NCBI GenBank assembly: GCA_019634955.1
Contig: JAHCAK010000018.1
Location: forward strand, 1-64,000
Length of the DNA: 64,000 bases
DNA from: Burkholderiales bacterium
GTDB lineage: Bacteria > Pseudomonadota > Gammaproteobacteria > Burkholderiales > Usitatibacteraceae
Reading direction: 5' to 3'
Shown here: positions 2,873 through 50,270 of the stretch, one piece after another
Numbering within the stretch: position 1 is the stretch's first letter
How the letters are laid out: the number at the start of each line of letters is the position of its first letter
Notes under the pieces: generated by a model
The model's database searches: none
What the model saw: only the letters and a program-made list of their open reading frames with translations
Told to the model about the DNA's origin: nothing
Position numbers and translations under genes: made by a program

Positions 2873-4680
2873 TTCGCCGCGGTGCCCTTTGGAGGCAGAA
2901 CCTTGTCCAGCAGTTCGCGGATGGCAGGCGGCGTGCTCCTAGCGGGGTCGGGTATCGCAGATATCTCCGAGGCGATCGCCTTTGCGAACTTCGTCTTTGC
3001 CCCTGTCAGCAAATCGTACATTGCGCGCTTTTCTGCCCCTAGGGACTGGTAGTCTCTCACGATCTTGGTTTCATGAGGTTGGCCATGCATCGACTTCATC
3101 CAATTATCAAAATCGGCCGGATTCCCATTTACCTTGTCAATTGCAGCTCGAACTTCCTTGTCGTAGCCATTGGTAAGAAGGTAACTTTCAATGTCGTCCC
3201 CTGGTGGCAGTTGGACTAGCTTCTTAGCCTGATCAATCGCATTGATTCCTGCCTTCTTGAAAGCCTTGATTACATTTGCTAGGCCAGAGTCTCCGTCACA
3301 GAGGACAAAATACGGAATCTCCAGTTGCTCAAACGCCCTCAGATAGGGGAGAAAACTGCCACTGCCCCCTACACTAACGAAGGCGAATCCCAGATCGTTA
3401 ATTGTGGACGCCCAATAGGCTTCTGCCCAAATTGGCAAGGCGACATCCTCTGTTTCTCCCTCAATCAGAACGACCTTGCGCGCGAACAGTACATCCCCTC
3501 GTGAGATAACGACCGCTCGCTCAATGCGGCGAATATCGTCTTCAACTAGCGTCTTCAAATCCAAGCGCCTTACCTTGGTTGAAGTACCTTCCTTTGCGAA
3601 TCGACGTAATGAATCCAAGCGCGCGCGCGATACGAAATAGGGAGAGTGGGTACTAACGATGAGTTGCCCAGGTATGTCGCTTATCTTGTCGAACGCGGCT
3701 CTTTGAGCTTGCGGGTGCAAATGTGCCTCGGGCTCCTCAAGAGCAAGTAACGGATGTACCGCTTGTCCCTTCGCCGACGCAATGCGCCAAGCGGCAAATG
3801 CTCGAAAAACCAATAACGTTGCAAGGCTGCGGGTTCCCATGCCGTGCTTCGAGAGCGAGAACTTCTGGGCCCCTTCAGTAGCAAAATTGATCTCGATACC
3901 CTTTGCAATATCTCTAAGCCTCGGCGCAACTGCCGCCAGTTCAATGCTGCCGGCTGACGCCGAAACCATGTTGTCGATGGAATCGAGATGGGTCTTTACG
4001 TGCTTGAGGACATCACTTTTCTCCAAAATTTCTGCGTTCAAGCCCGCTAGCGCGGATTCAAATGCCGTAACGTCAGCATCCGAAATTCCGAGATCGGAGG
4101 TTAGTCGTCGCCAAAAGGACCCTTGCCGACGAAGGTCATCGTCAATGTCTCTCTTGGCGTCCATTAGATACAAGCCAACCGCTTCAAGTTGAGCCGCAGA
4201 AATGCCGCCAGCGCGTTGCTTTGCCTGGTCCATCTCCTCCACCTTGGCGGGCCAACTAGTCAGAAAATATCGGGCGGTTTCATACTCTGCTTTGACGACA
4301 TTCCAAGCCGCCTCTGTCCTAATGGCCAAGAAGTCATTGTCCTCGGCATCTTGCGAAATTGCCGGCCCCCATAAGGTCGTCCACGGACTGCCCTCGGGGA
4401 AACTATCTGCGATCAGACCGTCGGTGGAGACGGGGCGAAATAACAAATCAATTTGGCACTTCCGACTCTTCGGAGGGCTTGACTCCTCTTCACCAACGTA
4501 GATGTCCTCCTCCAGAATCGGCCGACGAGGCAATCCAATGGCCGCCGCAATTGCCTCTAAGAAGCTCGTCTTTCCCGAGTTGTTCTCGCCAATTAACAAA
4601 GTAAATGGCTGAACGTCGACTTCGACCAATTCTAGAGATCGATAATTACTTACCCGTACTTCTAGCAGTCGGATCCCCAT
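2869..4680 (-). CDS. gajA: OLD-family ATPase/TOPRIM nuclease, Gabija GajA-like
   Basis: A 603-residue protein with an N-terminal ABC-type ATPase (Walker A GENNSGKT at 31-38, LEEPEAH Walker B at about 315-320, switch STHSPY at about 343) and a C-terminal TOPRIM nuclease (IEGETE near 405-411, CDGD at 461-464). In Gabija, GajA is a nucleotide-sensing DNA-nicking nuclease that forms a supercomplex with GajB. I start it at the ATG at 4680 (MGIRLLEVRVSNYRS), which matches the usual OLD N-terminus. An in-frame ATG at 4761 would place the nrdB terminator hairpin inside the coding region. No clear promoter is visible in the short gap, so weak read-through from nrdB may contribute. Low GC marks it as part of the acquired cassette. 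Confidence 0.82.
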   Translation of the reverse strand: MGIRLLEVRVSNYRSLELVEVDVQPFTLLIGENNSGKTSFLEAIAAAIGLPRRPILEEDIYVGEEESSPPKSRKCQIDLLFRPVSTDGLIADSFPEGSPWTTLWGPAISQDAEDNDFLAIRTEAAWNVVKAEYETARYFLTSWPAKVEEMDQAKQRAGGISAAQLEAVGLYLMDAKRDIDDDLRRQGSFWRRLTSDLGISDADVTAFESALAGLNAEILEKSDVLKHVKTHLDSIDNMVSASAGSIELAAVAPRLRDIAKGIEINFATEGAQKFSLSKHGMGTRSLATLLVFRAFAAWRIASAKGQAVHPLLALEEPEAHLHPQAQRAAFDKISDIPGQLIVSTHSPYFVSRARLDSLRRFAKEGTSTKVRRLDLKTLVEDDIRRIERAVVISRGDVLFARKVVLIEGETEDVALPIWAEAYWASTINDLGFAFVSVGGSGSFLPYLRAFEQLEIPYFVLCDGDSGLANVIKAFKKAGINAIDQAKKLVQLPPGDDIESYLLTNGYDKEVRAAIDKVNGNPADFDNWMKSMHGQPHETKIVRDYQSLGAEKRAMYDLLTGAKTKFAKAIASEISAIPDPARSTPPAIRELLDKVLPPKGTAAK

Positions 4681-4727
4681 CTTCGCCCGATCAAATGTGT
4701 TACTCGAAACGTTATCCCAAAAAAATA

Positions 4728-4757
4728 AGGGGCGCCGATTTGGCGCCCCTATTTTTA
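4728..4757 (-). terminator. Terminator of nrdB
   Basis: A 9-bp stem (4728-4736 with 4742-4750, 5-nt loop) has T-rich tracts on both sides, so it could work on either strand. On the minus strand it follows the nrdB stop and is followed by TTATTTTTTT. It separates the core gene from the Gabija-like cassette. Confidence 0.8.
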
Positions 4758-4777
4758 ACACATGCTTTACTTGACCG

Positions 4778-5923
4778 CTAATCCCAGCTCAACGCCCCCC
4801 CCGTCTGATACTCGATCACCCGCGTCTCGAAGAAGTTCTTCTCCTTCTTGAGATCGATGAGCTCGCTCATCCAAGGGAACGGGTTGGTAGCCCCCGGGAA
4901 CATCTGGTCCAGTCCAATCTGCTGCGCCCTCCGGTTCGCGATGAACCGCAGGTACTCCTTGAACATTGAAGCGTTCAAGCCGAGAACACCCCGAGGCATC
5001 GTGTCCTCGGCATAGGCGTACTCCAGCTCCACCGCCTTGTGGAAGAGCTCCGTCAGCTCGCGCCGGAACTCCTGCGTCCACAGGTGCGGGTTCTCCAGCT
5101 TGATCGTGTTGATGAGGTCGATACCGAAGTTGCAGTGCATCGACTCGTCGCGAAGGATGTACTGGTACTGCTCCGCCGCCCCCGTCATCTTGTTCTGCCG
5201 GCCCAGCGAGAGGATCTGCACGAACCCCACGTAGAAGAAGAGCCCTTCCATCAGGCACGCGAACACGATGAGGCTCTTCAGCAGCTCCCGGTCCGCCTCC
5301 TCCGTCCCCGTCTTGAAGGACGGATCCGTCAAAGTCTCGATGAACGGGATCAGGAAGTCGTCCTTGTCCCGGATGCACTTCACTTCCTTGTACGCGGCGA
5401 AGATCTCGCTTTCGTCCAGGCCCAGCGACTCCGCGATGTACTGGTAGGCGTGGGTGTGGATCGCCTCCTCGAAGGCCTGGCGCAGCAGGTACTGGCGGCA
5501 TTCGGGGGCCGTGATGTGGCGGTAGGTGCCCAGCACGATGTTGTTGGCGGCGAGCGAATCGGCCGTGACGAAGAAGCCGAGGTTTCGCTTCACGATCAAC
5601 CGCTCGTCCTCGGTGAGCCCGTTCGGGTTCTTCCAGAGGGCGATGTCGCGGTTCATGTTCACTTCCTGCGGCATCCAGTGGTTGGCGCAGCCCGCGAGGT
5701 ACTTCTCCCATGCCCACTTGTACTTGAAGGGCACGAGCTGGTTCACGTCCGTCTTCGCGTTGATGACGCGCTTGTCCTCCGCCTTCACGCGCGTGAAGAG
5801 GCCGTTGGCGCCCATCTCCTGCTTTGGTGCAGGGGCGGCGGCGGCGGGTTGCGGGGTGGGCTTCACCATCTGCAGGCCCAGGGCGGGCGTGATGGCGGGC
5901 GTGTCGTCTTCGAAACTGAGCAT
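4778..5923 (-). CDS. nrdB: Class Ia ribonucleotide reductase, beta subunit
   Basis: A 381-residue radical-generating subunit that supplies the tyrosyl radical used by NrdA to reduce ribonucleotides. Di-iron ligands are visible: the Asp in TADSLAANN, Glu and His in [10 protein letters not shown], Glu in CLMEGLFF, and Glu and His in RDESMHC. The Tyr of IHTHAY is at the spacing of E. coli Y122. The first 40 residues are an Ala/Pro-rich extension. It is the second gene of an operon whose promoter carries NrdR-like boxes (6564-6611). Its partner nrdA lies 11 kb away at 16957-20985 rather than adjacent, which is unusual. A strong terminator follows at 4728-4757. Confidence 0.97.
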
Positions 5924-5989
5924 CGCTGTCCGGTCCTCTCGATCGCTGGCGCTGGGGGCGCCACTTTTTGTATGGGGCCGCCCCCCGGT

Positions 5990-6021
5990 CCGCCACCGGG
6001 GGGAGTAGGCCCCGGTGGCGG
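5990..6021. repeat. Hairpin between nrdB and the upstream small gene
   Basis: A 12-bp perfect inverted repeat (5990-6001 with 6010-6021, 8-nt loop) lies in the 199-bp gap between the 97-residue gene and nrdB. There is no T-run after it on either side, so it is more likely an RNA-processing or stability element than a terminator. Confidence 0.55.
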
Positions 6022-6097
6022 TGGGTGGCGGTTACAGCCTCACTTCATCTCGGTACTGCCACTGCGAACGGGGGATCGATCGCTCCCCCCATTCCGT

Positions 6098-12603: not shown

Positions 12604-14189
12604 TTGGGAAGGCGGGAATGGAGAGCCGCGGCGGCGGCCGCGACGGCCGTGGCCGAATCGCTCGAGTCGACGATGACGGCCGTCTCCAGTTCCTCCGCCG
12701 AGAGGGGTTCCAGCGAGGCGAGCTGGTGGTCGAGCACGGCGAGCCCGGCCTCCGAGGCGTCCGTCCCCTGCCGATCCCGAGCGACGATCCGCTCTCGAAG
12801 CACCGCCTCCGGCGCCGCGCACGCGACCAGCACGAACGGCACGCCGAGGTCGCGCGCGAGATCCCGGAACATCGCCCGCCAGGTTGCGCGAAGGAACGCG
12901 GCATCCACGACCACAGGGTAGCCCGCCGCGATCACCTTGCGCACGAGCCCGCCGAGATGCGCGTAGGTCATCCGGTCCGCGCTCGCGGTGTAGAGCCCGC
13001 TGCCCACCGAGGAACCCGACCGCGCCCCCGCCTCCAGCCCGTGCAGGCGCTTGCGCTCCACGTCCGAGCGCAGGCGGATGGCCGAGAGCGCCTCCACGAG
13101 CCCCTGCGAGACCGTCGTCTTCCCGGACCCCGAGAGCCCGTGCATCGCGATGATCGCCGGGGCCCCGGGCCGGGAAAGCCGCTCCGCCAGCGCGAGATGC
13201 CCGCGGTACGCCGCCTCCGACCGCGCGCGATCCGCCTCCGCGATGCCCGCCTGCCGCGCCCGGATGCACGACACCTTCGCCCGCACCATCGCGCGGTACA
13301 CGAGGTAGAAGCGCAGCACGCGAAGCCCCGCGAAGTCGCCGGTGGCGTCGAGATACGCATCCACGAAGCGGCTCGCGAGCCGCCCGAGCCCGTGGTGCAC
13401 GAGGTCCATCACCGGGAAGGCGACCTCGTTCATCACGTCCACCCAGCGGAAGTCCTCGTTGAACTCGATCGCGTCGAAGGGCACGGGCCGGCCGTCCAGC
13501 AGCGCCACGTTGCCGAGGTGCAGGTCGCCGTGGCACTCGCGGACGAACCCGTCGTGCTTGCGGCGGGCGAACGTTTCCTCCAGCCGGTTGAACTCGCGAA
13601 GCGTCCACGAGGCGAGCGCCTGCCGCGCCGCGCGCGTCCCGGCGTCGTCGTCCAGCAGCTCCAGTTGCGCGAAGTTGTCCACCGCGTCCGCGAGGATCGT
13701 CCGTGGCGCGCCGAACGGCCCCTCGCCGTCGGTGCGCGCGATGCCCGCGTGGAAGGCGGCCACGGTGCGCGCGAAATCCTCGACGATGCGCTCCGTGAGC
13801 GCGCCCGACTTCGCGAGCCCGTCCAGCAGCGCCTCCTGCGGGAAGCGCCGCATGCGCACCGCGTACTCGAACGCCTCGCCCTCGCCGCCCATCGCCGGCG
13901 CGAGCGGCGTGCCCGTGATGGGCACCACACCGAGGTAGAGCTCCGGCGCCGTGCGCCGGTTGAGCCGAAGTTCCTCCTCGCAGAAGCGCCGGCGCGCGGC
14001 CAGCGTGGAGAAGTCGACGAAGCCGAGGCTCACCGGCTTCTTCACCTTGTAGGCGAAGTCGCCCGCGAGCAGCACCCAGGAGATGTGCGTCTCCAGCAGC
14101 TCGACCGGCCCCGCGGGATGCGGGTAGCAGGCGGGCAGCCGCAGCCGCTCGATGAAGCCCGTGGCAGGCGCTGCGCTGCCGTCGGGCAT
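12600..14189 (-). CDS. Phosphotransferase/P-loop kinase fusion protein
   Basis: A 529-residue two-domain protein. The N-terminal region (about 20-330) is an aminoglycoside-phosphotransferase-like kinase fold with ECHGDLHLGNV as the catalytic loop and FDAIEFNEDFRWVD as the metal-binding segment. The C-terminal region (about 345-520) is a zeta-toxin/gluconate-kinase-like P-loop domain with HGLSGSGKTTVS. Substrates are unknown. The same fusion occurs as Rv2004c in the mycobacterial DosR dormancy regulon, which fits its position here among CBS, HPF and phosphoribosyltransferase genes. It follows the GroEL gene and a small gene on the same strand with a 10-bp gap, so it is probably the third gene of that operon. 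Confidence 0.88.
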   Translation of the reverse strand: MPDGSAAPATGFIERLRLPACYPHPAGPVELLETHISWVLLAGDFAYKVKKPVSLGFVDFSTLAARRRFCEEELRLNRRTAPELYLGVVPITGTPLAPAMGGEGEAFEYAVRMRRFPQEALLDGLAKSGALTERIVEDFARTVAAFHAGIARTDGEGPFGAPRTILADAVDNFAQLELLDDDAGTRAARQALASWTLREFNRLEETFARRKHDGFVRECHGDLHLGNVALLDGRPVPFDAIEFNEDFRWVDVMNEVAFPVMDLVHHGLGRLASRFVDAYLDATGDFAGLRVLRFYLVYRAMVRAKVSCIRARQAGIAEADRARSEAAYRGHLALAERLSRPGAPAIIAMHGLSGSGKTTVSQGLVEALSAIRLRSDVERKRLHGLEAGARSGSSVGSGLYTASADRMTYAHLGGLVRKVIAAGYPVVVDAAFLRATWRAMFRDLARDLGVPFVLVACAAPEAVLRERIVARDRQGTDASEAGLAVLDHQLASLEPLSAEELETAVIVDSSDSATAVAAAAAALHSRLPK

Positions 14190-26058: not shown

Positions 26059-27428
26059 TCAGTCGATCCCCAGCCGGTCGAGGCGATAGCGCAGGCTGCG
26101 GAAGGTGATGCCGAGGAGCTTGGCCGCCGCCGTCTTGTTGAAGCGCGTCGCCTCCAGCGCCTTCATGATCGCCTCGCGCTCCACCTGGTCGAGGAAGTCG
26201 TGCAGCGGCAGCCCGCGCGTGCCGAGCGCGCCGTCGGTGGCCGCGACCTTCTCGCGGGGCGTGGCCTGCGTGAGGTAGAGGTCGCCCTCGCGAATGGTGT
26301 TGTCGCTGCACAGGGCGAGCGCGCGCTCGAGGATGTTCTCCAGCTCGCGGACGTTGCCGGGGAAGTCGTAGCGCCTGAGCGCGAGGAGCGCGTCCTCGGC
26401 CACCACGGGCGGCGGGACGCCGTTCTGCCGCGCCAGGCGCTCGACCACCTGCGAGACCATGGGCGGGATGTCCTCCGGGATCTCGCGCAGGCTGGGCATC
26501 TTCATCTCGATCACGTTGAGGCGGTAGAAGAGGTCCTGGCGGAACTCGCCCGCCTCCACCTGCTCGGCGAGCGAGCGGTGCGTGGCCGAGATGATGCGGA
26601 TGTCGATCCCCTCCTCCTCGGTGTCGCCGAGGCGGCGGAACTTCTTCTCCTGGATCACGCGCAGCAGCTTCACCTGCATCGCGAGCGGGAGATCGCCCAC
26701 CTCGTCCAGGAAGAGCGTGCCCTTCTGCGCGGCGTGGAGGTAGCCCTGGCGGTCCGTTTCCGCGCCCGTGAAGGCGCCTTTCCGGTAGCCGAAGAACTCG
26801 CTCTCCATGAGGTTCTCGGGGATCGCGCCGCAATTGACCGCGACGAAGGGGGCATCCGCGCGCGAGGAGCCGGCGTGGATCATGCGCGCGGCGACTTCCT
26901 TGCCGCTGCCGGACTCGCCGGTGATGTAGACCGGCGCCTGCGAGCGCGCCAGCCGCCCGATCATCTCGCGGGCGCGCTGGATGGGCGCCGATTCGCCGAT
27001 GAGCCGCGGCACGCCGTTGTTCGCCGACTCGCCCGAGGCCGCGCGCCGCGAATGCGGGTGCCGCGGGAGCTTCAGCGCGCTCATCACCAGCGGGCGCAGC
27101 TGGTCGAGCTTGATGGGCTTGGCGAGGTAGTCGAAGGCGCCGGCCTTGAGCGCCGCCACCGCGTTCTCGGTGGAGCCGTAGGCCGTGATCACGGCCACCG
27201 GCGTGTTGCCGTAGTGCTCCGCGATGTGGCGCAGCACCTCCAGCCCCTCGCCGTCGGGCAGGCGCATGTCGGTGAGCGCGAGGTCGTAGGCGCGGCGCTC
27301 CAGCGCCTCCCTCGCCTCCGCGACGCTCGCGGCGCTGTCGGCGTCGATGCCCATGCGCGAGAGCGTGACCACGAGCAGCTCGCGGATGTCGGCCTCGTCG
27401 TCGACGATCAGGACCGCCTTGTTGGCCA

Positions 27429-27429
<1 letters not shown>
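26059..27429 (-). CDS. pilR: Sigma-54-dependent response regulator PilR
   Basis: A 456-residue NtrC-family activator. The receiver domain (1-120) carries DDE and the phosphoacceptor Asp in LTDMRLPDGEG. The AAA+ domain has GESGSGKE (Walker A), the sigma-54-contacting GAFTGA loop and FLDEVGD (Walker B). The C-terminal Fis-type helix-turn-helix ends near RFNKTAAAKLLGITFRSL. It starts at the ATG that overlaps the PilS stop by one base. In related bacteria PilSR controls type IV pilin transcription with RpoN. Confidence 0.95.
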
Positions 27430-29056
<1,627 letters not shown>

Positions 29057-29060
<4 letters not shown>

Positions 29061-40070: not shown

Positions 40071-40325
40071 CTAGCCCTTGCGGATGGTCCAGCGCATCGC
40101 CTTCCCGGCGTCCTGCACCTGGGAGACGATGTCGTTGCCCTCCGTCGCGCACATGGCGCTGATCGACTCCCCCGAGGAGGGATTGTCGAAGACGAGGTCG
40201 AGCGTGTCGCCGGAGGCGAGCTTCTCGAGCGCCTTCTTCGTGTAGATCTGCGGGTGCGGGCACACGTAGCCCTGCACGTCCAGCTGGTACTTGCCGTCGG
40301 AGACCTTCTCGAACTTCGCTGCCAT
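40071..40325 (-). CDS. tusA: TusA-family sulfur carrier protein
   Basis: An 84-residue protein with the YVCPHPQIYTKKAL motif, the CPxP signature of TusA, whose first Cys carries persulfide sulfur. The remainder follows the TusA fold (LDLVFDNPSSGESI, GNDIVSQVQ). It is 41 bp downstream of the YeeE/YedE transporter gene. A second TusA-like protein starts the operon. Together they suggest transport of a reduced sulfur compound followed by sulfur relay. Confidence 0.9.
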   Translation of the reverse strand: MAAKFEKVSDGKYQLDVQGYVCPHPQIYTKKALEKLASGDTLDLVFDNPSSGESISAMCATEGNDIVSQVQDAGKAMRWTIRKG

Positions 40326-40366
40326 GGACTGCCTTTCGTCTGCGGTTGTGACAAGGATGGGGCGGA

Positions 40367-41818
40367 TCAGAACCCGAGCGGGGCTTCCTTCGCCATCTTG
40401 CGCTCGATCCACCAGTTGAAGAACTTGACGCCGACCCACCCGCCCGCGGTCATGCCCGCGAGGAAGATCCAGCCCGAGGGGTCGCCGTTGGTGACCGTCG
40501 CGAAGAACGCGCCGATGTTGCAGCCCATGCCGATGCGCGAGCCGATGCCCATGAGGATGCCGCCGGCGATGGCCCAGGTGGCGATCTCGAGCGTGGGCAT
40601 CTTCAGCTTGAACTCGTTGGCGAGGAAGGCCATGAACATCGAGCCGCCGATCACCGAGAAGCTCATCCACAGCACGGGGTTCGCGAGCGGCGACGGGATG
40701 CCGTTCTCCATCCCGAAGAAGATGTTGTCGTCGAGGTTCACGCCGAGCTTCGCGAGCACCCAGGCCGCGCCCTGCGCCTCCTGCGTGGTCACGTAGAAGT
40801 AGCCGGGGTCGAACACCGTCTCCTGCAGGCTCAGGCCCTCGGTGATGCCCATCGCGGTGAGGAGCTCCCCGGCGTTGGAGATGCCGAACTTCTGCTGCAG
40901 CGTCTGCATCACCCACATCTGCAGGCCGGCGGCCACGCCCAGCACGAGGCCGGCGATGGCGGTGCGCTTCGAGGCCGTGACCATGCTCCACCAGCCGCGC
41001 ACCTCGGCGCCGGCGGTGGGCGCCGTCAGCTTGTTCTTGCGCAGCCAGCCCTTGCGGTACCAGATGGCGTAGATCGCGACGAGCAGCACGAGCGCCGGCA
41101 GCACCGCGTTCACGAGCGAGTTGCCGATGAACGCCTTGGCCGCGGGGCTGGAGAAGCCGAGCGCGTCGCCCACGACCACCGACTTGAGGTTCCACACGTA
41201 GCCGGCGAGGAACTGGTCGTACCAGCCGGCCGTCACGCTGAGCTCGGCGGGCATGTTCTTGGCCGCGGCCGATGCCGTCCACGAGGCGGGCACGACCGCA
41301 TCCAGCACACCGCCGATGTCGACGAAGAGGGCCTGCGCGAAGCTGAGCGAAAGCACCACGAGCAGCGCGGAGACGCTTCCCTCGCCCGTCTTGTAGAGCG
41401 AGCCCGTGGCGCAGCCGCCGGTGAAGACCATGCCGAAGCCGAAGATCGCGCCGCCCACGAGCGAGTACAGGCCGATGGGGCTCGCGTGGAATGTGCTCTT
41501 GCCGGCGACCGTCACCGCGGCCGACACGAGGCTGAAGAGGACGACCGCGATCATGATGCCCACCGCCATGCGCGGCACGCCGACCGCGAAGAGGTCGCGG
41601 ACGGCCGAGGCCATGCAGAAGCGCCCGTACTGCAGGCTCGCGCCGTAGATGAAGCCGAACCACAGGTAGGCCGAGAAGTAGAGGTAGCGCGCGTCGGTGA
41701 TGATCGTCCCGGCCGAGACCAGGACGAAGAACCCCACCACCGCCGCCGCCCGCAGCGCGTTGGCCCGGCTGGTCGCCGCGCCCACCCCCTCGGTCGTGCA
41801 TGCCACGCTTTCCGTCAT
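40367..41818 (-). CDS. YeeE/YedE family sulfur transporter
   Basis: A 483-residue membrane protein with two repeats of the YeeE/YedE domain and about 11-13 helices. The channel Cys motifs are visible as QYGRFCMASAV, TGGCATGSLYK and GMGCNIGAFF, which in characterised members conduct thiosulfate by transient hydrogen bonds to Cys. It overlaps the upstream TusA-like gene by 4 bases. The likely substrate is thiosulfate or a related sulfur (or selenium) anion. Confidence 0.93.
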   Translation of the reverse strand: MTESVACTTEGVGAATSRANALRAAAVVGFFVLVSAGTIITDARYLYFSAYLWFGFIYGASLQYGRFCMASAVRDLFAVGVPRMAVGIMIAVVLFSLVSAAVTVAGKSTFHASPIGLYSLVGGAIFGFGMVFTGGCATGSLYKTGEGSVSALLVVLSLSFAQALFVDIGGVLDAVVPASWTASAAAKNMPAELSVTAGWYDQFLAGYVWNLKSVVVGDALGFSSPAAKAFIGNSLVNAVLPALVLLVAIYAIWYRKGWLRKNKLTAPTAGAEVRGWWSMVTASKRTAIAGLVLGVAAGLQMWVMQTLQQKFGISNAGELLTAMGITEGLSLQETVFDPGYFYVTTQEAQGAAWVLAKLGVNLDDNIFFGMENGIPSPLANPVLWMSFSVIGGSMFMAFLANEFKLKMPTLEIATWAIAGGILMGIGSRIGMGCNIGAFFATVTNGDPSGWIFLAGMTAGGWVGVKFFNWWIERKMAKEAPLGF

Positions 41819-42213
41819 TGCCCCTTCTCCCCTTCGTCCGCGCCGAGCTTGCGCGCGTAGATCTTCCAGAAACCGTCCAGGTGCAGCGTGCCCAGGTGCA
41901 CGCAGCCGTGCCCCGCCAGCATGAACGGGATGGTCTCGACCGAGCTCAGGTTGTCCGAGACGATCTCGACCACGGTGCCGGGCCGGGCCGCGTCGAGCGC
42001 GCGCTTCGTGACGAGGTTGGTGCGCAGGCAGGTGGCGCCCATGAGGTCGACGCTCGCGTCGGCCACCATCGCCCCGTGCCCCGGCACTTCCACCCACCGC
42101 GACGCCGCGTCCGGCGCGGCATCCGCCGGGCCCTTGCGCAGGGCGGGGAAGATCCAGCCAATCGGATCGATCAACCAGTACACCGCCTTGCCTCGTTCGC
42201 TGTCGTTGGCCAT
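41815..42213 (-). CDS. TusA-like sulfurtransferase domain protein
   Basis: A 132-residue protein. A short N-terminal segment (MANDSERGKAVYWLIDPIGW) precedes a TusA-like domain with GATCLRTNLVTKRAL, where a single Cys replaces the CPxP pair. The C-terminus has AGHGCVHLGTLHL. It is the first gene of the minus-strand sulfur operon and is divergent from the rhodanese-lipoprotein gene across a 261-bp gap. Confidence 0.8.
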   Translation of the reverse strand: MANDSERGKAVYWLIDPIGWIFPALRKGPADAAPDAASRWVEVPGHGAMVADASVDLMGATCLRTNLVTKRALDAARPGTVVEIVSDNLSSVETIPFMLAGHGCVHLGTLHLDGFWKIYARKLGADEGEKGQ

Positions 42214-42291
42214 GGGATAGCAAGTAGCATGCCGCGATGCCAGCCCCTTGATTTCACAGCGGGAGCGCGCCGAGCGCGGTCGTGCGGCGCT

Positions 42292-42339
42292 TTGCAATTT
42301 GAGAGCGCCGCTCCAGTGCCGGGTGGAATGTGCAATGCA
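42292..42339 (+). promoter_or_regulatory. Sigma-54 promoter for the rhodanese/cytochrome cluster
   Basis: TGGAATGTGCAATGCA (42324-42339) has GG and GC 10 bp apart, the -24/-12 spacing of RpoN promoters. TTGCAATTTGAGAGC (42292-42306) lies 33 bp upstream of the GG. The same two elements recur at 45214-45259. A hairpin (CCCAAGG, 42358-42364 with 42374-42380) lies early in the leader. Confidence 0.6.
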
Positions 42340-42474
42340 ACGCGCCGGCCCGCAAGGCCCAAGGTCTTGTTTTCCTTGGGGGATGAGGAGCGGCACGCAA
42401 TGTGCTTGAGTTTGGCCCCGGCGGGCCTCGCCCGCGACAAACCAAACGGCCAAGCGAAGACTGCGGAGGAGAAC

Positions 42475-43968
42475 ATGAGCACACGGCAACTGGGCAACGA
42501 CCTGCAGCACCTGCTGAACCCGCGCGCCGCGGCTGCCGCGGCCGTGTGCCTCGCGCTCGCCGCCTGCGGCGGCGGGGGCGGCCGCGAGGACACCTCCTCC
42601 GGCAACGTGGTGAAGATCGTCGTGAACTCGCCGCAGGAGATCGCGCAGACTTCCGCGGACGACTACAACGCCAACGTGAACGGCCTCATCACGGCGGCCA
42701 CGCTCAAGAGCTGGATCTCGAACTGGGCGGGCAACCGCCCCGCGGGCATCACCGGCAAGCTCATCATCTTCCAGGCCACGACGGGCCCGGCGGGCGCGGA
42801 GTACATCAAGCCCAACGGCTCCAGCGTGTTCACCTACCTGTCGCCCTCCTCGGAGTGGATCCAGACGCGCACCAACGGCGTGATCGAGACGCAGAGCATG
42901 GTGCCGGACGGGCCGACCATGGACGCGCTCATCCGCAAGTACAACATCGACCCCGTGAACGACATGATCGTCTGCGCCATGGGCACGGGCAGCAACCCCA
43001 ACGCGATGGCGCAGGGCCGCTGCTGGTACGCGCTGCGCTACTGGGGCGTGGACAAGAAGAACGTGGCGGTGCTCAACGGCGGCAACCAGTGGATCAACGG
43101 CAACGGCCTCGCGGCGGCCGACTTCACGGCCACGCCCAGCACGGCGCCCAACACGGGCACGGCGAGCGTGCGCGACATCCCGGTGGACAACATGGCGCTT
43201 CAGGCCACCTTCGAGGACGTGATGAACGTGCTGCCGGAGACCGACACCAACGCGAAGGGCGACGGCGTCCTCATCTGGGACGCGCGTTCGATCGGCCAGT
43301 TCAGCGCCGGCGAGCGCCTCGAGCCGGGCGACTCCGGTTACGCGGCGTGCGGCGCCGCCAACTGCGCGGCCCCGGCCAACTACGACTACATGCGCACGTT
43401 CCAGAACGGCGGCTCGCGCCAGGGCCACCCGCGCGGCACGCTGCAGCTGCAGTACACGAACCTCCTCGACTCGACGAAGGGGTTCTCGTACAAGCCGAAG
43501 TCCGTCCTGATGAACTACCTCACGGGCGGCGCGGACGCGGGCGGCTTCCGCTTCGTGGACGCCACCTACGCCGGCGTGGGCGACGGCAACGGCTACCAGA
43601 ACGGCGACGTGATCTACGCCTACTGCGAGACCACCTTCCGCGCCATGATCACCGGGTTTGCATCCGCCGGGATCCTGGGGCTGCCGGTGCGCTTCTACGA
43701 CGGCGCGATGGTGGAGTGGAACTCGCTCTCCCACATCCAGGACAACACGGGCAAGTACATCCTCCCGGCCAACTCGCCGTGGCGCACGGACGTGAAGAGC
43801 TTCTTCCGGCCGGCGACCTCCGCCTCCCTCGTCGCGACGCGCAACATCACCAACGCCTTCGCGGTGCACGCCAACAAGATCATCCTCGAGGACAAGAGCT
43901 ACAAGCGCGGCGGCACGGGAACCGGGCCCACGGATGACGGCCCCGGCGGAGGCAACCCCTGCGGCTGA
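42475..43968 (+). CDS. Rhodanese-like lipoprotein
   Basis: A 497-residue exported lipoprotein. The signal peptide ends in the lipobox LAAC with Cys 31, followed by a Gly-rich linker. Two rhodanese-like domains follow. The first (about 60-260) includes YWGVDKKNVAVLNGGNQW. The second carries LIWDARSIGQFSAGE (about 268) and the active loop YCETTFRA with Cys 384. An excellent GGAGGAG site precedes the ATG at 42475. A rhodanese lipoprotein beside multiheme cytochromes and a porin is the plan of ExtH in Geobacter, which participates with its porin in selenite handling. It is the first gene after the sigma-54 promoter at 42324-42339. Confidence 0.88.
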   Translation: MSTRQLGNDLQHLLNPRAAAAAAVCLALAACGGGGGREDTSSGNVVKIVVNSPQEIAQTSADDYNANVNGLITAATLKSWISNWAGNRPAGITGKLIIFQATTGPAGAEYIKPNGSSVFTYLSPSSEWIQTRTNGVIETQSMVPDGPTMDALIRKYNIDPVNDMIVCAMGTGSNPNAMAQGRCWYALRYWGVDKKNVAVLNGGNQWINGNGLAAADFTATPSTAPNTGTASVRDIPVDNMALQATFEDVMNVLPETDTNAKGDGVLIWDARSIGQFSAGERLEPGDSGYAACGAANCAAPANYDYMRTFQNGGSRQGHPRGTLQLQYTNLLDSTKGFSYKPKSVLMNYLTGGADAGGFRFVDATYAGVGDGNGYQNGDVIYAYCETTFRAMITGFASAGILGLPVRFYDGAMVEWNSLSHIQDNTGKYILPANSPWRTDVKSFFRPATSASLVATRNITNAFAVHANKIILEDKSYKRGGTGTGPTDDGPGGGNPCG

Positions 43969-45224
43969 CGCTTCGCACGGCCGGCGGGGCGGCGCTCGTC
44001 GTCCTCGCCGGCCTCGCCCTCTGGGCGGGCTGGCGCCACTTCGAGGCGCAGCGCGCGAGCGAGGCCGTCGACGCCTTCCTCGCGCGCCACTGGTCGCACC
44101 CCATCGCCCCCCAGGGCGATCCCCCGAAAGAATTCACGCCGGTCGAGGCGAGCCTCGCGCCCGAGGACTGCGGCGCGTGCCACGCGACGCAGCTCGCCGA
44201 CTGGAAGACGAGCCTGCACAGCCGCGCCGTCGGCCCCGGCATCCTCTGGCAGCTGCGCACCATGGACCAGGGGCACGGCAACGACTGCCTGCGCTGCCAC
44301 GCCCCGCTCGCGGAGCAGAAGGCGCTCATGGCGCTCGAACGCGGGTGGCCCAACGCGCCCGCCGCGCCGCCGCCCGGCTGGGTGCCCGCCGACCTGCACC
44401 TGCGCGGCCTCGCCTGCGCCGCCTGCCACGTCCGCCGCCACGAGCGGTTCGGCCCGCCGGCCCGGCCGGGCGCGCCGGCGATCGAGGGCCGCAAGCCCCA
44501 CGGCGGCTTCGTCGCCGAGGCCGCCTTCTCCGACAGCCGCTTCTGCTCGACCTGCCACCAGTTCGCGCCCGACGGCCGCCGCGTCAACGGCAAGCTGCTG
44601 GAGAACACCTACGAGGAGTGGCGCGCGAGCCGCCACGCGCGTGAGGGCCGCGCCTGCCAGGCCTGCCACATGCCGGAGCGCCGCCACCTCTGGCGAGGCA
44701 TCCACGACCCGGAGATGGTGAAGCGTGCCCTGGGCCGCGAGGTCACGGCCGCGCGCCTGGACGCGGGGCGCGCCCGCGTCACGGTGCGGCTCGCCAACCG
44801 CGGCGCCGGGCACCACCTGCCGACCTACGTGGTGCCCAAGATCATGGCCAGCGTGTACCTGCGCGGGCCGGGCACCCACATGCTCGTGGGCCAGCACGTC
44901 GTGGGCCGAACGCTCAACGTGGCGCTGGACCGCGAGATCGCCGACACCCGCCTCGCGCCGGACGCCACGCACGAGTTCGCCTTCGACATCGCCGTGGGGC
45001 CGGGCCGCTGGCGCGCGGTGCTGCGCACCGAGGTCGCCCCGGGCGAGCACTACGAACGCATGTTCGCCGACATGCGCCGGCGCAACCCCGGGCTGGACGA
45101 GGCCACGCGCGCGCAGCTGGACGAGGCGCTGGGCAAGGCGGTCGCGGCGCGCTTCTTCCTCGACGAGCTCGAGGTGGCCATTCCGGAGGCGCCGGCGGAT
45201 GCGCCGGCGAGGGTTGCAAATTGA
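43965..45224 (+). CDS. Membrane-anchored pentaheme c-type cytochrome, apparent CTG start
   Basis: About 419 residues with an N-terminal anchor (TLRTAGGAALVVLAGLALWAGW) and five CxxCH motifs at 69, 108, 151, 194 and 231, followed by a Cys-free C-terminal beta-rich domain (about 245-410). The frame is open back to a TGA at 43935, but no ATG, GTG or TTG occurs before 44262, which lies after the first heme. The best start is CTG at 43965, overlapping the upstream stop as CTGA; a second CTG at 43959 has GGAGG six bases before it. An ATG start at 44262 would lose the export signal. A sequencing error near 43960 is the alternative explanation. Confidence 0.82.
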   Translation: MTLRTAGGAALVVLAGLALWAGWRHFEAQRASEAVDAFLARHWSHPIAPQGDPPKEFTPVEASLAPEDCGACHATQLADWKTSLHSRAVGPGILWQLRTMDQGHGNDCLRCHAPLAEQKALMALERGWPNAPAAPPPGWVPADLHLRGLACAACHVRRHERFGPPARPGAPAIEGRKPHGGFVAEAAFSDSRFCSTCHQFAPDGRRVNGKLLENTYEEWRASRHAREGRACQACHMPERRHLWRGIHDPEMVKRALGREVTAARLDAGRARVTVRLANRGAGHHLPTYVVPKIMASVYLRGPGTHMLVGQHVVGRTLNVALDREIADTRLAPDATHEFAFDIAVGPGRWRAVLRTEVAPGEHYERMFADMRRRNPGLDEATRAQLDEALGKAVAARFFLDELEVAIPEAPADAPARVAN

Positions 45225-45259
45225 AAGCCCCCCGCGCGCCGAAGGGTTAATGCAATGCG
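45214..45259 (+). promoter_or_regulatory. Second matching sigma-54 promoter
   Basis: GGGTTAATGCAATGCG (45244-45259) again has GG and GC 10 bp apart and shares TGCAATGC with the first site. TTGCAAATTGAAAGC (45214-45228) lies 31 bp upstream of the GG and overlaps the stop codon of the pentaheme gene. Confidence 0.58.
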
Positions 45260-45362
45260 GCGCGGCGGTGAGCGGCCGGCAAGTCCCTGTTTTTCAACGG
45301 TCCGGGCGATGGCACGCATCCTGCTGTTCACGCGCCATCGCGTGCGCAATGCGGGGGTCGCC

Positions 45363-45614
45363 ATGAATCGTCTTGCGGGATTGCTGGTCGCGGCCTTCCT
45401 TCTGCCAGTGGCGCACGCCCAGGCGCCCGCGAAGGCGGAGGCCGACGGGGCGAAGCCCGCGGCCGCCGAAGACGCCGCGCAGCCGAAGAAGCGGCGGCTC
45501 AAGTTCAAGAGCGACAAGGCGTGCACCTGCTCGAGCGCCCTTGGCGAGGCCGACATCGAAGTCGCCGAGAAGAAGGCGGCGCAGGACCCACAACCCAGGA
45601 GGAACGAGAAATGA
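45363..45614 (+). CDS. Small secreted Ala/Lys-rich protein
   Basis: An 83-residue protein with a signal peptide (MNRLAGLLVAAFLLPVAHAQ) and a hydrophilic mature part containing one Cys pair, CTC, near 60. I do not recognise a family. It overlaps the triheme cytochrome gene by 4 bases and follows the second sigma-54 promoter. A start at 45309 would add a basic segment before the signal peptide, so I prefer 45363. It may be a periplasmic accessory of the electron-transfer cluster. Confidence 0.7.
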   Translation: MNRLAGLLVAAFLLPVAHAQAPAKAEADGAKPAAAEDAAQPKKRRLKFKSDKACTCSSALGEADIEVAEKKAAQDPQPRRNEK

Positions 45615-46114
45615 AGCAACGCACCCCGCTCATCGACAAGCTGCGCGCGCTGGCCCGCGGCACCCTGCGCACCGCCGCCGGCACGGTCGCGGTCGTCACC
45701 GCCGCGCTCCTCTGGTCGCTCGCCGCCTCGGGCCCGGAGCGCGCCGACGGCGCGGGCGAACCGCGCGCCGAAGCCCGCGGGTGGGGCGCGGAGGCGATCG
45801 CGGACGTGCGCGACGCGATGCGCGCGGTCTCCCCCATCGCCGAGGCCAACGCCTGCGGCATGGGCGCCTCCTCCTGCTTCAAGTGCCACAACGGCCAGCG
45901 CGCCGCCGCGCCCAGCCAGGAGAAGTGGCACACCGACCACAAGAGCGTCGACAACTCCTGCGTCGGCTGCCACAAGGGCAACCCCCGGCTCATCAAGAAG
46001 GAGCTCGCCCACTCGCAGATGGTGAAGGACCCGCGCCCCAACCCCGCCGAGATGTGCGCGAGCTGCCACAAGACGGGCAACGCGGCGGACCTCGTGAAGG
46101 CCTACAAGAAGTGA
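45611..46114 (+). CDS. Triheme c-type cytochrome
   Basis: A 167-residue protein with an N-terminal membrane anchor or signal (TVAVVTAALLWSLAAS), followed by three CxxCH motifs at 89, 117 and 149 (CFKCH, CVGCH, CASCH). His residues between them (WHTDHKS, LAHSQM) are likely distal ligands. An AGGAGG site precedes the ATG at 45611, which overlaps the upstream stop. It is probably a periplasmic electron carrier between the pentaheme protein and the outer membrane. The heme pattern does not match NapB or class III cytochromes closely. Confidence 0.9.
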   Translation: MKQRTPLIDKLRALARGTLRTAAGTVAVVTAALLWSLAASGPERADGAGEPRAEARGWGAEAIADVRDAMRAVSPIAEANACGMGASSCFKCHNGQRAAAPSQEKWHTDHKSVDNSCVGCHKGNPRLIKKELAHSQMVKDPRPNPAEMCASCHKTGNAADLVKAYKK

Positions 46115-46133: not shown

Positions 46134-47327
46134 ATGAAGCGTGCCACCAGGATTCCGACCCGCAGGACGACCACCACGAAGCGGCTGGCGGGCGCGGTCG
46201 CCGCAGCGCTCCTCGCCTTCGCCGGCAGCGCCGCGGCGGGGCCCACGATCACGTTCGGCAAGGAGGGCAGCCTCACCTTCAACTACTCCTTCCAGGGGTG
46301 GGCGCAGGACCGCGGCTACACCTCGTCCACGGACTCGGGCCGGCAGACGGACTTCTTCCTGCGCAGGAACCGCCTCACCTTCTCGGGCCAGTACAACGAC
46401 CTCGTGGGCTTCTACGCCAACGTCGACGCGCCCTCCGACAGCCGCGGCGGCGACGACGACAAGAGCATCTTCTTCCGCGACGCCTACATCACGGTGGACC
46501 ACAGCGACGAGCTGCGCTTCATCGTCGGGCGCTTCAAGAACGCGTTCACGCGCGAGAACCTGGAAGCCTGCTTCGACCCGCTCACCATGGACCGCGCCGA
46601 GGTGATGAGCTACACGCCGTGGGGCGGGAGCCGCGACACCGGCATCGCGATGTGGGGCAACCTCGCCGACGGCCGCTTCCAGTACAAGGTGATGGCCTCC
46701 GACGGGCGCGAGGGCGCCGAGGTCGCGAAGGACTCGCCGCGGCTCACCGGGCGCGTGCACGTGAGCCTGCTCGACCCGGAATTCGACTTCGGCTACCGCG
46801 GCACCTACCTCGGCACCCGGCGCGTGCTCACCATCGGCGCGGCCTACGACTACCAGAAGAGCGTCGCCTACCGCGACTTCGTCGGCAAGTCGGACACGGT
46901 CGACTACAAGGCGTGGACGGCCGACGTCTTCTTCGAGCAGCCGACCTCGGCGGGCACCGTCACGGCCTCGGCCGCGGTGATGCGCTACGACACCGGCAAG
47001 GCCCACTTCGGCCTCTCGCCCGACCCGAACCTGCCGGCCACCACCGACCTCGAGGGCTGGTACGTGAAGGCGGGCTACCTCCTGCCGGGCAAGGTCGGCC
47101 CGGGCCGCGTGCAGGTCTTCGGCCGCCACGAGCGAAGCGAGTACAACCTGCCGTCGGGCTACCGCGACCAGAAGTGGGACGGCATCGGCGTCCACTACCT
47201 CATCGACGGGCAACTCCTCAAGGTGAGCTTCGAGGCGGCGCAGGTGAAGTTCGACGTGCAGAACCCCACCAATCCCTCGCAGCGCGACTACAAGCAGTAC
47301 ACGCTGGGCCTGCAGTTCATCTTCTGA
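46134..47327 (+). CDS. Outer-membrane porin
   Basis: A 397-residue beta-barrel protein with signal peptide (about 1-36, ending GSAAA) and a C-terminal Phe (TLGLQFIF) as required for Bam insertion. Alternating aromatic strands and an RRNRLTFSGQYND segment resemble phosphate-selective porin O/P-type barrels. It lies 19 bp after the triheme cytochrome. Its position matches ExtI, the porin for selenite uptake in Geobacter, in a cluster with a rhodanese lipoprotein and cytochromes. It could also be a simple anion porin. Confidence 0.85.
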   Translation: MKRATRIPTRRTTTTKRLAGAVAAALLAFAGSAAAGPTITFGKEGSLTFNYSFQGWAQDRGYTSSTDSGRQTDFFLRRNRLTFSGQYNDLVGFYANVDAPSDSRGGDDDKSIFFRDAYITVDHSDELRFIVGRFKNAFTRENLEACFDPLTMDRAEVMSYTPWGGSRDTGIAMWGNLADGRFQYKVMASDGREGAEVAKDSPRLTGRVHVSLLDPEFDFGYRGTYLGTRRVLTIGAAYDYQKSVAYRDFVGKSDTVDYKAWTADVFFEQPTSAGTVTASAAVMRYDTGKAHFGLSPDPNLPATTDLEGWYVKAGYLLPGKVGPGRVQVFGRHERSEYNLPSGYRDQKWDGIGVHYLIDGQLLKVSFEAAQVKFDVQNPTNPSQRDYKQYTLGLQFIF

Positions 47328-47356: not shown

Positions 47357-47409
47357 CCGACCCGGCCGGCCCCGTGGCAACATGCTTCCGGAAGCACACC
47401 GGAGGAGCG

Positions 47410-48870
47410 ATGGGAGGCGCGGACTTCGCCGCCGATTCCCGGCAGGCAGTCGCCGAAAACCCGCAAGGCACCGGCACCGCGCGCAAGGCGCTGCGGGCCG
47501 TGCCCCTGCTCGCGCTCGGCGCGGCAGCGACCTTGGCGCTGGTCGCCTGGCTCGCGCCCGCGGGCCTCGCCTGGGCGGTGGCCGCCGTGCTCGCCGCGCT
47601 CCTCGGCGCCGCCGCCTTCGCCCTGCGCGCCTACGGCCGCGGCATGGCAGCCGTCCACTCGGCCCTGCGCCACGCGAACGAAGGCTCGCTCGAGCCGCTC
47701 GCGCTCCCGCCGGCTTCCGCCGCGCTCCTCGCGCCCGTCGCCGACGAGTACAACGTGCTCGCGCGCAACCTCGGCTCGCTCTTCGGCGAGATGGAGCAGG
47801 CGCAGCTCGCCATCATCGCCGAGAGGAACCGCCACGAGGCGATCCTGCAGGGCCTGCCGGGCGCGCTGCTCGTGGTCGACGGCGACTTCAACGTGACGCT
47901 CTCCAACCGGCAGGCCGAGGCGCTCTTCGCCGTGCCGGCGGCCGCGCTCGAGGGCGCCAACGTCTTCGACCTGCTTCACCCCGACGAGATGGGGCGGGAG
48001 GTGCTGCGCGAGGCCTTCCTGTACGAGCAGCCGCTCGCCAACAAGGTGCTCGCGCTGCGCGTGGGCGAGGACGCCCGGCAGGTCTCGCTCAACGTCACCT
48101 TCTTCGGCAAGGCGCCGCACACGGCGCAGGCGAGCGCGGCGATCATCCTGCAGGACATCACCGACTGGAAGCGCCTGGAGGACCGCGCGAGCCTCTCGGA
48201 GAAGCTGGGGGCCATGGGCCAGCTCGCCGCGGGCGTGGCCCACGAGCTCAACACGCCGCTCGGCACCATCCTCGGCTACGCGCAGCTCCTGAACGAGGGT
48301 CGGGCGAGCGAGGAGAAGCGCGCCGAGTACGCGCGCGAGATCCACGCCGAGACCAAGCGCTGCGCGCGCATCGTCGACAACCTCCTCGCCTACGCGCGCC
48401 GCGACGTCTGCGGCACCGAGACCTGCGAGGTGAACGAGCTGGTGCGCGAGGCGGTGGAAGCCGTCACGAACTGCCAGGGCCGGCGCCTGTGCGTCGCGAT
48501 CGAGGCCGACACGAAGGGCGAGCTGGTGGTGCGCGGCGGCTCCGGGCAGCTCGACATCGTGCTGGTCAACCTGCTGGTGAACGCCGCGCAGGCGGCCACC
48601 GCGAGCGCCTCGCCCCGCGTGCGGGTGAGCACGGCCGCCGAGGCCGGGCACGCGGTGATCACCGTCGAGGACAACGGCCCCGGCGTGGCCCCGGAGGTGC
48701 GCCCGCGCCTCTTCGAGCCCTTCTTCACGACCAAGGGCGAGTCGGCCGGCACCGGCCTGGGGCTTCCCATCAGCCAGTCGATCGTCAACCGCGTCGGCGG
48801 CACGATCCACTGCGACCCCGACTACCGCGGCGGCGCGCGCTTCGTCGTGACGCTGCCGCTGGCCGCGTAG
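47410..48870 (+). CDS. PAS-domain sensor histidine kinase
   Basis: A 486-residue kinase. Two transmembrane helices near 35-80 are joined by a very short loop, so there is little periplasmic sensor. A PAS domain (about 145-250) precedes the phosphoacceptor box AHELNTPLGTILGYAQLL and an ATPase domain (NLLVNAAQAA, DNGPGV, GTGLGLPIS). It contains several Cys between the two regions (RRDVCGTETCEV, TNCQGRRLC) that could sense redox or metal. The ATG at 47410 has a GGAGGAG site. It pairs with the sigma-54 activator 2 bp downstream and probably controls the rhodanese/cytochrome cluster. Confidence 0.92.
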   Translation: MGGADFAADSRQAVAENPQGTGTARKALRAVPLLALGAAATLALVAWLAPAGLAWAVAAVLAALLGAAAFALRAYGRGMAAVHSALRHANEGSLEPLALPPASAALLAPVADEYNVLARNLGSLFGEMEQAQLAIIAERNRHEAILQGLPGALLVVDGDFNVTLSNRQAEALFAVPAAALEGANVFDLLHPDEMGREVLREAFLYEQPLANKVLALRVGEDARQVSLNVTFFGKAPHTAQASAAIILQDITDWKRLEDRASLSEKLGAMGQLAAGVAHELNTPLGTILGYAQLLNEGRASEEKRAEYAREIHAETKRCARIVDNLLAYARRDVCGTETCEVNELVREAVEAVTNCQGRRLCVAIEADTKGELVVRGGSGQLDIVLVNLLVNAAQAATASASPRVRVSTAAEAGHAVITVEDNGPGVAPEVRPRLFEPFFTTKGESAGTGLGLPISQSIVNRVGGTIHCDPDYRGGARFVVTLPLAA

Positions 48871-48872
48871 CG

Positions 48873-50270
48873 ATGGAAGCCGCGACCGCCCCCAGCCCGT
48901 CCGCGGCCGAGGAGTCCGGCATGGCCGTGATCCTCGTGGTCGAGGACGACGCGGCCATGCGGCGCATGGTCCAGGAGGTGCTCTCGGCCGCGCCGGCGAA
49001 GGTGGTGGCGGTGGAAAGCTCGCAGGCGGCGCTGGAATACCTCGAGCGCGAGGCGGTGGCGGTGGTGCTCACCGACCTGCGCATGCCGCGCGTGAGCGGG
49101 CTGGAGGTGCTGCGCTTCGCCCGCGCGAGGAGCGCGCTCACGCAGGTGATCCTGCTCACCGGGCACGCGACGGTGGAGGCCGCCGTCGAGGCCCTCAAGG
49201 GCGGCGCCTACGACTTCCTGAAGAAGCCCTTCGAGCCCGAGGACCTGCGCCGCATCGTCGACCGCGCGCTCGAGTACTGGCGGCTCAACTGCGAGAACCT
49301 CAGGCTGCGCGAGACCAACCGCGCCTACGCGGACATGGACGGGCTGGTGGGCAAGAACCCGGCGATCGAGCAGGTGCGGCGCATGGTGCGCGCCTGCGCG
49401 GCCTACGACTGCTGCGTGCTGGTCACCGGGGAGTCCGGCACCGGCAAGGAGGTCGTCGCCCACCAGGTGCACCTGTCGAGCGGGCGGCGGGACGGCCGCT
49501 TCGTCGCGGTCAACTGCGCCGCCATCCCCGAGAACGTGATCGAGAGCGAGCTCTTCGGCTACCAGCGCGGGGCCTTCACCGGCGCCGACCGCGCGAAGCC
49601 CGGCCTTTTCGAGGCCGCCGACCGCGGCACGCTCTTCCTCGACGAGATCAACAACGCCTCGCCCGCCTTCCAGGCGAAGCTCCTGCGCGTGCTGCAGGAC
49701 GGCACCTTCTACCGGCTGGGCGACACCGAGCCGCGCCGCGCCGACGTGCGCCTGATCGCCGCCACCAACCGGCCCCTGCCCGCCCTCGTGGAGAGCGGCG
49801 CCTTCCGCATGGACCTCTACTACCGCCTGCGGATCGTGGAGATCGTGATGCCGCCGCTGCGCGAGCGGCGAAGCGACATCGCGCTGCTGGCCAACTACTT
49901 CCTCGCGCGCCACGCGGCCCGGCTGGGCAAGCCGGTGAAGGGGCTCACCACACGGGCGCTCGGCGCGCTCATGCGCCACGATTGGCCGGGCAACGCGCGC
50001 GAGCTGGAGAACACGATCCAGTCGATGATCATCCTCACGGAAACCGACATGCTCGACGTGGACGTGCTGCCGCCGGGGCTCGCCGCCGAGCAGCCGGCGC
50101 CGGGGCGCGCGATGGAAGTGATCGAGCCGCAGAGCCTCGAGGAGATCGAGGCCTACTTCATCGCCAAGACGCTGCGCGAGACCAAGGGCAACCGCGCGAC
50201 GGCCGCGGAGATCCTGGGCATCGACAAGTCCACGCTGTGGAGGAAGATCAAGCGCTACGGCCTCGAGTGA
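48873..50270 (+). CDS. Sigma-54-dependent response regulator
   Basis: A 465-residue NtrC-family regulator. The receiver domain has EDD and the phosphoacceptor Asp in LTDLRMPR. The AAA+ domain has GESGTGKE, the GAFTGA loop and LDEINN. The C-terminus is a Fis-type helix-turn-helix (NRATAAEILGIDKSTLWRKIK). It starts 2 bp after the kinase. The only two RpoN-type promoters I found in the window lie upstream of the cytochrome cluster, and this regulator is their obvious activator. Confidence 0.94.
   Translation: MEAATAPSPSAAEESGMAVILVVEDDAAMRRMVQEVLSAAPAKVVAVESSQAALEYLEREAVAVVLTDLRMPRVSGLEVLRFARARSALTQVILLTGHATVEAAVEALKGGAYDFLKKPFEPEDLRRIVDRALEYWRLNCENLRLRETNRAYADMDGLVGKNPAIEQVRRMVRACAAYDCCVLVTGESGTGKEVVAHQVHLSSGRRDGRFVAVNCAAIPENVIESELFGYQRGAFTGADRAKPGLFEAADRGTLFLDEINNASPAFQAKLLRVLQDGTFYRLGDTEPRRADVRLIAATNRPLPALVESGAFRMDLYYRLRIVEIVMPPLRERRSDIALLANYFLARHAARLGKPVKGLTTRALGALMRHDWPGNARELENTIQSMIILTETDMLDVDVLPPGLAAEQPAPGRAMEVIEPQSLEEIEAYFIAKTLRETKGNRATAAEILGIDKSTLWRKIKRYGLE

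Follow-up and report, generated by a model that had tools for sequence, protein, structure and literature searches.

Glutamine synthetase genes (glnA) are a classical target of NtrC and sigma-54, and promoters of this type have paired sites some 60-110 bp before their GGCAYG-N5-TGCT box, together with a linked or dedicated activator of the NtrC family, an arrangement that the locus described here resembles. In gene content this locus resembles another system, the extHIJKL(MNOPQS) genes of Geobacter sulfurreducens, which encode the rhodanese-like ExtH, the porin ExtI, a five-haem cytochrome and a small protein (PMC5877670, PMC6148476). ExtI has been linked to selenite and tellurite reduction, and Fur control has been reported for the ext cluster (PMC5877670); extHIJKL has been tested in metal reduction, and a LysR-family gene adjoins most Geobacter ext clusters (PMC6148476). 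Sigma-54 also acts over electron-transfer genes in G. sulfurreducens, where the RpoN consensus TTGGCACGGTTTTTGCT resembles the boxes reported below; the ext genes GSU2936, GSU2939 and GSU2940 are absent from the main text of the paper on that regulon (PMC2725144). In the literature searched, we found no account of sigma-54 control of an ExtH/ExtI-like cluster. The locus lies in a stretch of 64,000 nucleotides (the window; contig JAHCAK010000018.1, positions 1 to 64,000) of a Burkholderiales bacterium (assembly GCA_019634955.1), and its gene order differs from that of Geobacter, with tusA/yedE, a sensor kinase and an NtrC-type response regulator added. Because its ExtH and ExtKL scores are under the respective cut-offs (Table 1), the cluster is not filed as Geobacter-type extHIJKL; it is a relative of that cluster, not a member.

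It is very probable that this cluster is controlled by sigma-54 from boxes at 42392, 45311 and 42233 (minus strand), with conserved candidate enhancer sites for the cluster's own NtrC-family regulator and a bend, probably by integration host factor (IHF), in between. Ahead of its two cytochrome-containing units (units 1 and 2), two blocks of DNA are shared, as an earlier note on the window had observed: block 1 has the element TTGCAATTTGAGAGC (42292-42306) and then, from 42331, TGCAATGC, and block 2 has the element TTGCAAATTGAAAGC (45214-45228) with the same TGCAATGC from 45251. When both regions are aligned, the likeness extends further downstream via a T-rich stretch as far as GGCACGCA. The earlier note had placed two sigma-54 promoters within the blocks, their GG 33 bp (unit 1) and 31 bp (unit 2) from the start of the element, and had taken the element for an unusually close activator or IHF-type site. 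Better -24/-12 boxes are found about 65 bp downstream of each shared block. Since this downstream box is conserved in 22 of 22 aligned copies and the boxes of the note in only 8, every one of them in the window's genus, the shared block is probably an ordinary upstream activator site, and its first part (site A) begins 97-109 bp ahead of the conserved -24 GG. Site A is a candidate enhancer-type activator site at about -125, the blocks spanning about -125 to -80, and 8-10 of the 13 positions of its dyad are self-complementary (random mean, 3.0). For the second part, site B, half-site is the best term; its reading as a full second dyad was rejected, a quarter of the background TTGCA words equalling its median score. 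The layout is thus real and conserved, only mislocated in the earlier note, and the mechanism itself is well known.

The evidence that carries this reading is the conservation in relatives. Exact peptide patterns, a search that reaches close relatives only, gave 17 loci with an ExtH-like gene (L011-L027), from Thiobacillus, Gallionella, Hydrogenophilus and unclassified proteobacterial records, nearly all of them metagenome assemblies, and each of the 17 holds the ExtH-like protein, both cytochromes, the porin, the kinase, the regulator, tusA and yedE. The 22 aligned copies come from 17 loci, the window included, and consist of the unit 1 regions of the window, L011, L012, L013 and L027 and the unit 2 regions of the window, L011-L018 and L020-L027; left out were unit 2 of L019 and unit 1 of L014-L026. 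All 22 keep the order TTGCA, TGCAA, IHF-like core and GGCAYG-N5-TGCT, so that the upkeep of the shared elements in relatives, on which the earlier note had let its claim depend, is borne out. The spacing from TTGCA to TGCAA is 37-39 bp, and from the start of site A to the box 97-100 bp, with 48 and 108-109 bp in L027; in unit 2 of L019, TTGCA lies 97 bp ahead of GGCACATAACATGC. The roughly ten extra bases between A and B occur in both regions of L027 and amount to one helix turn, which suggests, from this one genome, that the two sites have to lie on the same face of the DNA. L027 also has its kinase and regulator genes inverted (3315-6028, minus strand), beyond yedE rather than behind the porin, and both of its unit promoters keep the layout. 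Among 61 genomes searched, 4 of the 8 from the window's genus (its own included) encode the ExtH-like protein, with one weak match elsewhere.

A diverged version of the layout extends beyond these relatives. The ExtI porin model passes its cut-off in 9 of 369 genomes of the class, one of them the window's own, and the other eight belong to the same class and are not marked as the same order. Upstream of unit 2, all eight have TTGCA 98-101 bp before the -24 GG. Unit 1 boxes with TTGCA at 98-100 bp are present in four (L088, L089, L090, L094), this region being unclear or absent in L092, L093 and L095, and tusA boxes with TTGCA 109-111 bp upstream in five (L089, L090, L092, L093, L094); the tusA region lay outside the stretch read in L088 and L091, as did the unit 1 region in L091. 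Kinase and regulator were matched in seven of the eight.

Within the window, RpoN boxes were scored over 13 positions as GG-N10-GC with YTGGCACG-N4-TTGCW, a consensus that matches the one given in PMC2725144, and the unit 2 box at 45311 has the top score. Exact GGCAYG-N5-TGCW occurs three times only in the 64 kb, at 42392 and 45311 on the plus strand and at 42233 on the minus strand, so that three boxes of this kind are present where two promoters had been claimed. With 0.84 expected and 4 of 100 shuffles reaching three, the count is mildly unusual and by itself modest evidence; it is the places and the conservation that carry the argument. The genome encodes RpoN (TIGR02395, 473.9 bits, above cut-off).

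With up to two mismatches allowed, site A (TTGCAAWTTGARAGC) has no matches in the 3.86-Mb genome other than those in the two shared blocks (backward control, 1), and the same holds for a 14-mer with at most one mismatch (backward control, 0); in the window alone, site A reaches a count of 3 at up to three mismatches, as do 18 of 100 shuffles, and this count is hence not unusual. Combined as an exact pattern, site A and box were found in 1 of 369 genomes of the class (the window's own) and in 3 of 399 of the order (its own, G002 and G572), where the contig number and coordinates of G572 equal those of L021 and the two samples partly overlap. Eight genomes of the class sample with the diverged version escaped the exact pattern, so its zeros speak for specificity, not for absence. 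A loose pattern (TTGCA, 91-108 bp, GGCAYG-N5-TGCW) gave 54 matches in 18 genomes, 40 at the cluster and 14 elsewhere, with 5 in the backward control. Site A alone did not yield further regulon members: in the 18 genomes scanned, none of the five off-cluster matches with one mismatch (L029, L047-L050) lies within 170 bp of a GGCAYG-N5-TGC box.

In the window's own genome the loose pattern falls on four places, the three predicted cluster promoters and one before a glutamine synthetase gene. This sole off-cluster match (L126, G000:C24:31500-34500) has NtrC-like TTGCAC...GGTGC words and GGCATGGATCCTGCT upstream of the gene, the label NtrC-like referring to the NtrC site consensus. Its promoter carries TTGCAC 109 bp and TGCACC/TTGCAC 78 bp before the GG, and because of this the distances at the cluster can be regarded as ordinary for sigma-54 enhancers. 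In contrast to the glnA words, the cluster's site word is TTGCA-N3-TGAAA, and its sites are local and bound to the cluster, where in the window genome one pair apparently serves two divergent promoters.

The sigma-54 activator gene which the earlier note had seen in the cluster is indeed there, as an NtrC-family response regulator (48921-50270, plus strand), and control of the two units by this local regulator stands as the likely reading even though the -24/-12 boxes named for it do not. Across the 17 related loci, its helix-turn-helix (HTH) domain is 81-100% identical to that of the window and its last 22 residues 86-100%, the corresponding ranges for receiver and AAA+ domain being 46-79% and 60-91%. 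The HTH is thus the best conserved part of the protein, two other regulators being 30-32% identical in it, and this fits a fixed DNA site that the cluster regulator would bind. One further kinase and NtrC-family response regulator, PilS/PilR-like by eye and with an HTH that shares 32% identity with the one in the cluster regulator, are encoded in the window at 26059-29060 (minus strand). The core consensus of IHF is of the YAA-N4-TTGATW type, and all 22 copies have a YAA-N4-NTGW-like word, a pattern loosened after the alignment had been seen, at a distance of 31-32 bp from the -24 GG on its upstream side. The IHF-type site of the earlier note is plausible, but at 42360-42370 and 45280-45290, not at the near-upstream element.

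Put together, the phosphorylated regulator would bind the TTGCA dyad of site A at about -125 and the TGCAA half-site B at about -86, and a bend at the core between these sites and the promoter, probably via IHF, would bring it to sigma-54 polymerase waiting at GGCACG-N5-TGCT at 42392 and 45311. The first of these boxes is predicted to start unit 1, with the ExtH-like protein and a cytochrome, and the second to start unit 2, with the small protein, a cytochrome, the ExtI porin and probably also the kinase and the regulator, in which case the system would be autoregulated. From the box at 42233 on the minus strand, the divergent tusA-yedE genes would be transcribed, in the window genome with use of the unit 1 sites from the opposite side.

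This third box is of the GGCAYG-N5-TGC[TA] kind and is found before tusA in 18 of 18 loci (the window and its 17 relatives), tusA-yedE being divergent in L011, L012, L013 and L027. In the relatives, TTGCA or TTGCG words stand some 108-113 and 69-74 bp upstream of the GG of the tusA box, and the corresponding words of the window, at -102 and -64, are the unit 1 sites on the opposite strand. One enhancer pair thus seems common to the unit 1 and tusA-yedE promoters in the window genome, and as its congeners carry a separate pair before tusA, the sharing is observed in this one genome only. The tusA ATG at 42213 sits upstream of the start predicted from the box, and the GTG at 42183, which is kept in L011, is more likely the start codon.

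Several observations weigh against this picture. Site B has only TTGCA in common with site A, a likeness no greater than that of background TTGCA words. The IHF-alpha model gave two matches in the genome, both under cut-off and one with an internal stop. In the 13 Thiobacillus-type loci L014-L026, the 350 bp preceding the ExtH-like gene showed no activator site. Among the eight further ExtI genomes, the strict GGCAYG-N5-TGC box of unit 2 is present in just three (L090, L091, L095), the -12 GC is intact in seven and reads GT in L094, the region before tusA in L095 yielded no box, and in the 10.5 kb read of L091 the second cytochrome and the porin were the only matches, with no kinase or regulator. 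For the shared enhancer pair, the window genome is the only example, and its assembly consists of 90 contigs. L020, finally, has at 12877 a second sigma-54-like box (GGCACGTATTGTGCA, 11 of 13) within its unit 2 activator region, 26 bp after site A and near the location given in the earlier note; the GG of this box is missing in the close relatives L021 and L025.

The extra box of L020 is also one of the points in favour of the promoters as originally proposed at 42324 and 45244, with TTGCAAWTTGARAGC as a very close activator or IHF site, and both of these boxes are of the form GG-N10-GC, the first fitting 9 of 13 positions. The second fits only 5, however, the boxes are kept in few copies of a single genus with a better box downstream in every copy, and the pattern is no commoner than chance would give (1645 instances in the 64-kb window, against 1723 expected), which is why they were rejected and why this explanation is hardly tenable. 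Even less credit can be given to the idea that the similarity has no regulatory role and is a duplication remnant or a coding constraint at the end of a cytochrome gene. It is true that site A of unit 2 holds the stop codon of such a gene, but at the unit 1 copy in the window there is no gene end, tusA being divergent, and the layout, non-coding parts included, is still present in loci whose regulator has only about 59-64% identity.

It is somewhat easier to imagine, yet still improbable, that the boxes are right and that another activator, such as NtrC, uses the TTGCA sites in place of the cluster regulator. The NtrC-like sites before glnA in the same genome likewise have TTGCA as their outer part, but the cluster sites lack the GGTGC part found there, kinase and regulator accompany the cluster in all 17 ExtH loci and in seven of eight ExtI genomes, and the HTH is what the cluster regulator conserves best. 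Judged from sequence, control by the cluster's own regulator accounts best for these observations.

Table 1. Features of the cytochrome-porin cluster and its predicted control regions (window coordinates)
Feature	Position	Strand	Remarks
Second TusA-domain protein	40071..40331	-	PF01206
YedE/YeeE-type sulphur or selenium transporter	40367..41818	-	PF04143; NCBIfam YedE and TsuA matches under cut-off
TusA-domain protein	41818..42213	-	PF01206; nominal start
Third likely sigma-54 box, before tusA-yedE	42219..42233	-	GGCATGCTACTTGCT; exact GGCAYG-N5-TGCW; same kind of box in 18/18 loci
Candidate activator site A, unit 1	42292..42306	+	imperfect 13-bp dyad TTGCAATTTGAGA; kept in 5 unit 1 copies
Box 1 of the earlier note	42324..42339	+	rejected as promoter; overlaps half-site B; 9 of 13
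Candidate half-site B, unit 1	42331..42336	+	TGCAAT; position kept in 22/22 copies
IHF-like core, unit 1	42360..42370	+	CAAGGTCTTGT; 32 bp before -24 GG
Likely sigma-54 -24/-12 box, unit 1	42392..42406	+	GGCACGCAATGTGCT; 10 of 13; start expected at ~42417
Unit 1: ExtH-like rhodanese-type protein	42475..43968	+	NF040901, 101.9 bits (cut-off 200)
Unit 1: c-type cytochrome, ExtKL-like	43959..45224	+	5 CXXCH; NF040886, 42.3 bits (cut-off 250)
Candidate activator site A, unit 2	45214..45228	+	includes stop codon of upstream cytochrome gene (45222-45224)
Box 2 of the earlier note	45244..45259	+	rejected as promoter; 5 of 13
Candidate half-site B, unit 2	45251..45256	+	TGCAAT; position kept in aligned copies
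IHF-like core, unit 2	45280..45290	+	CAAGTCCCTGT
Likely sigma-54 -24/-12 box, unit 2	45311..45325	+	GGCACGCATCCTGCT; 11 of 13; start expected at ~45336
Unit 2: small protein	45363..45614	+	no family match; position like ExtJ
Unit 2: c-type cytochrome	45611..46114	+	3 CXXCH
Unit 2: ExtI-family porin	46134..47327	+	NF040900, 337.1 bits (cut-off 150)
Sensor histidine kinase	47374..48870	+	PAS domain; nominal start
NtrC-family response regulator	48921..50270	+	receiver, sigma-54 AAA+, Fis-type HTH

The frame of the unit 1 cytochrome (43938-44262) has no ATG, GTG or TTG before 44262, which is past the first haem motif, and translation may start from a CTG (43959 or 43965) that falls within the end of the ExtH-like gene. 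From the YedE- and TusA-type neighbours, the best guess for the role of the cluster is one with sulphur, selenium or tellurium compounds, and the signal for its kinase may be an oxyanion of one of these elements or a redox cue.

Whether the locus represents an undescribed NtrC-family two-component system is in our view evenly balanced. Such a system would have a closed, cluster-only regulon, with two to three sigma-54 promoters for an ExtI-type conduit and a sulphur/selenium transporter, and would be found in Thiobacillus and other relatives among the betaproteobacteria, as well as in further orders of the same class. There it would replace the LysR and Fur regulators of the Geobacter clusters, and in the window genome a single enhancer pair would serve two divergent promoters. 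For ExtI-type porin-cytochrome clusters outside Geobacter, the analysis gives a testable regulatory map, with the grouping of the genes, the probable regulator and the predicted sites, and the linked sensor kinase may be a handle on the signals to which such conduits respond, be they selenite, tellurite, sulphur compounds or the redox state.

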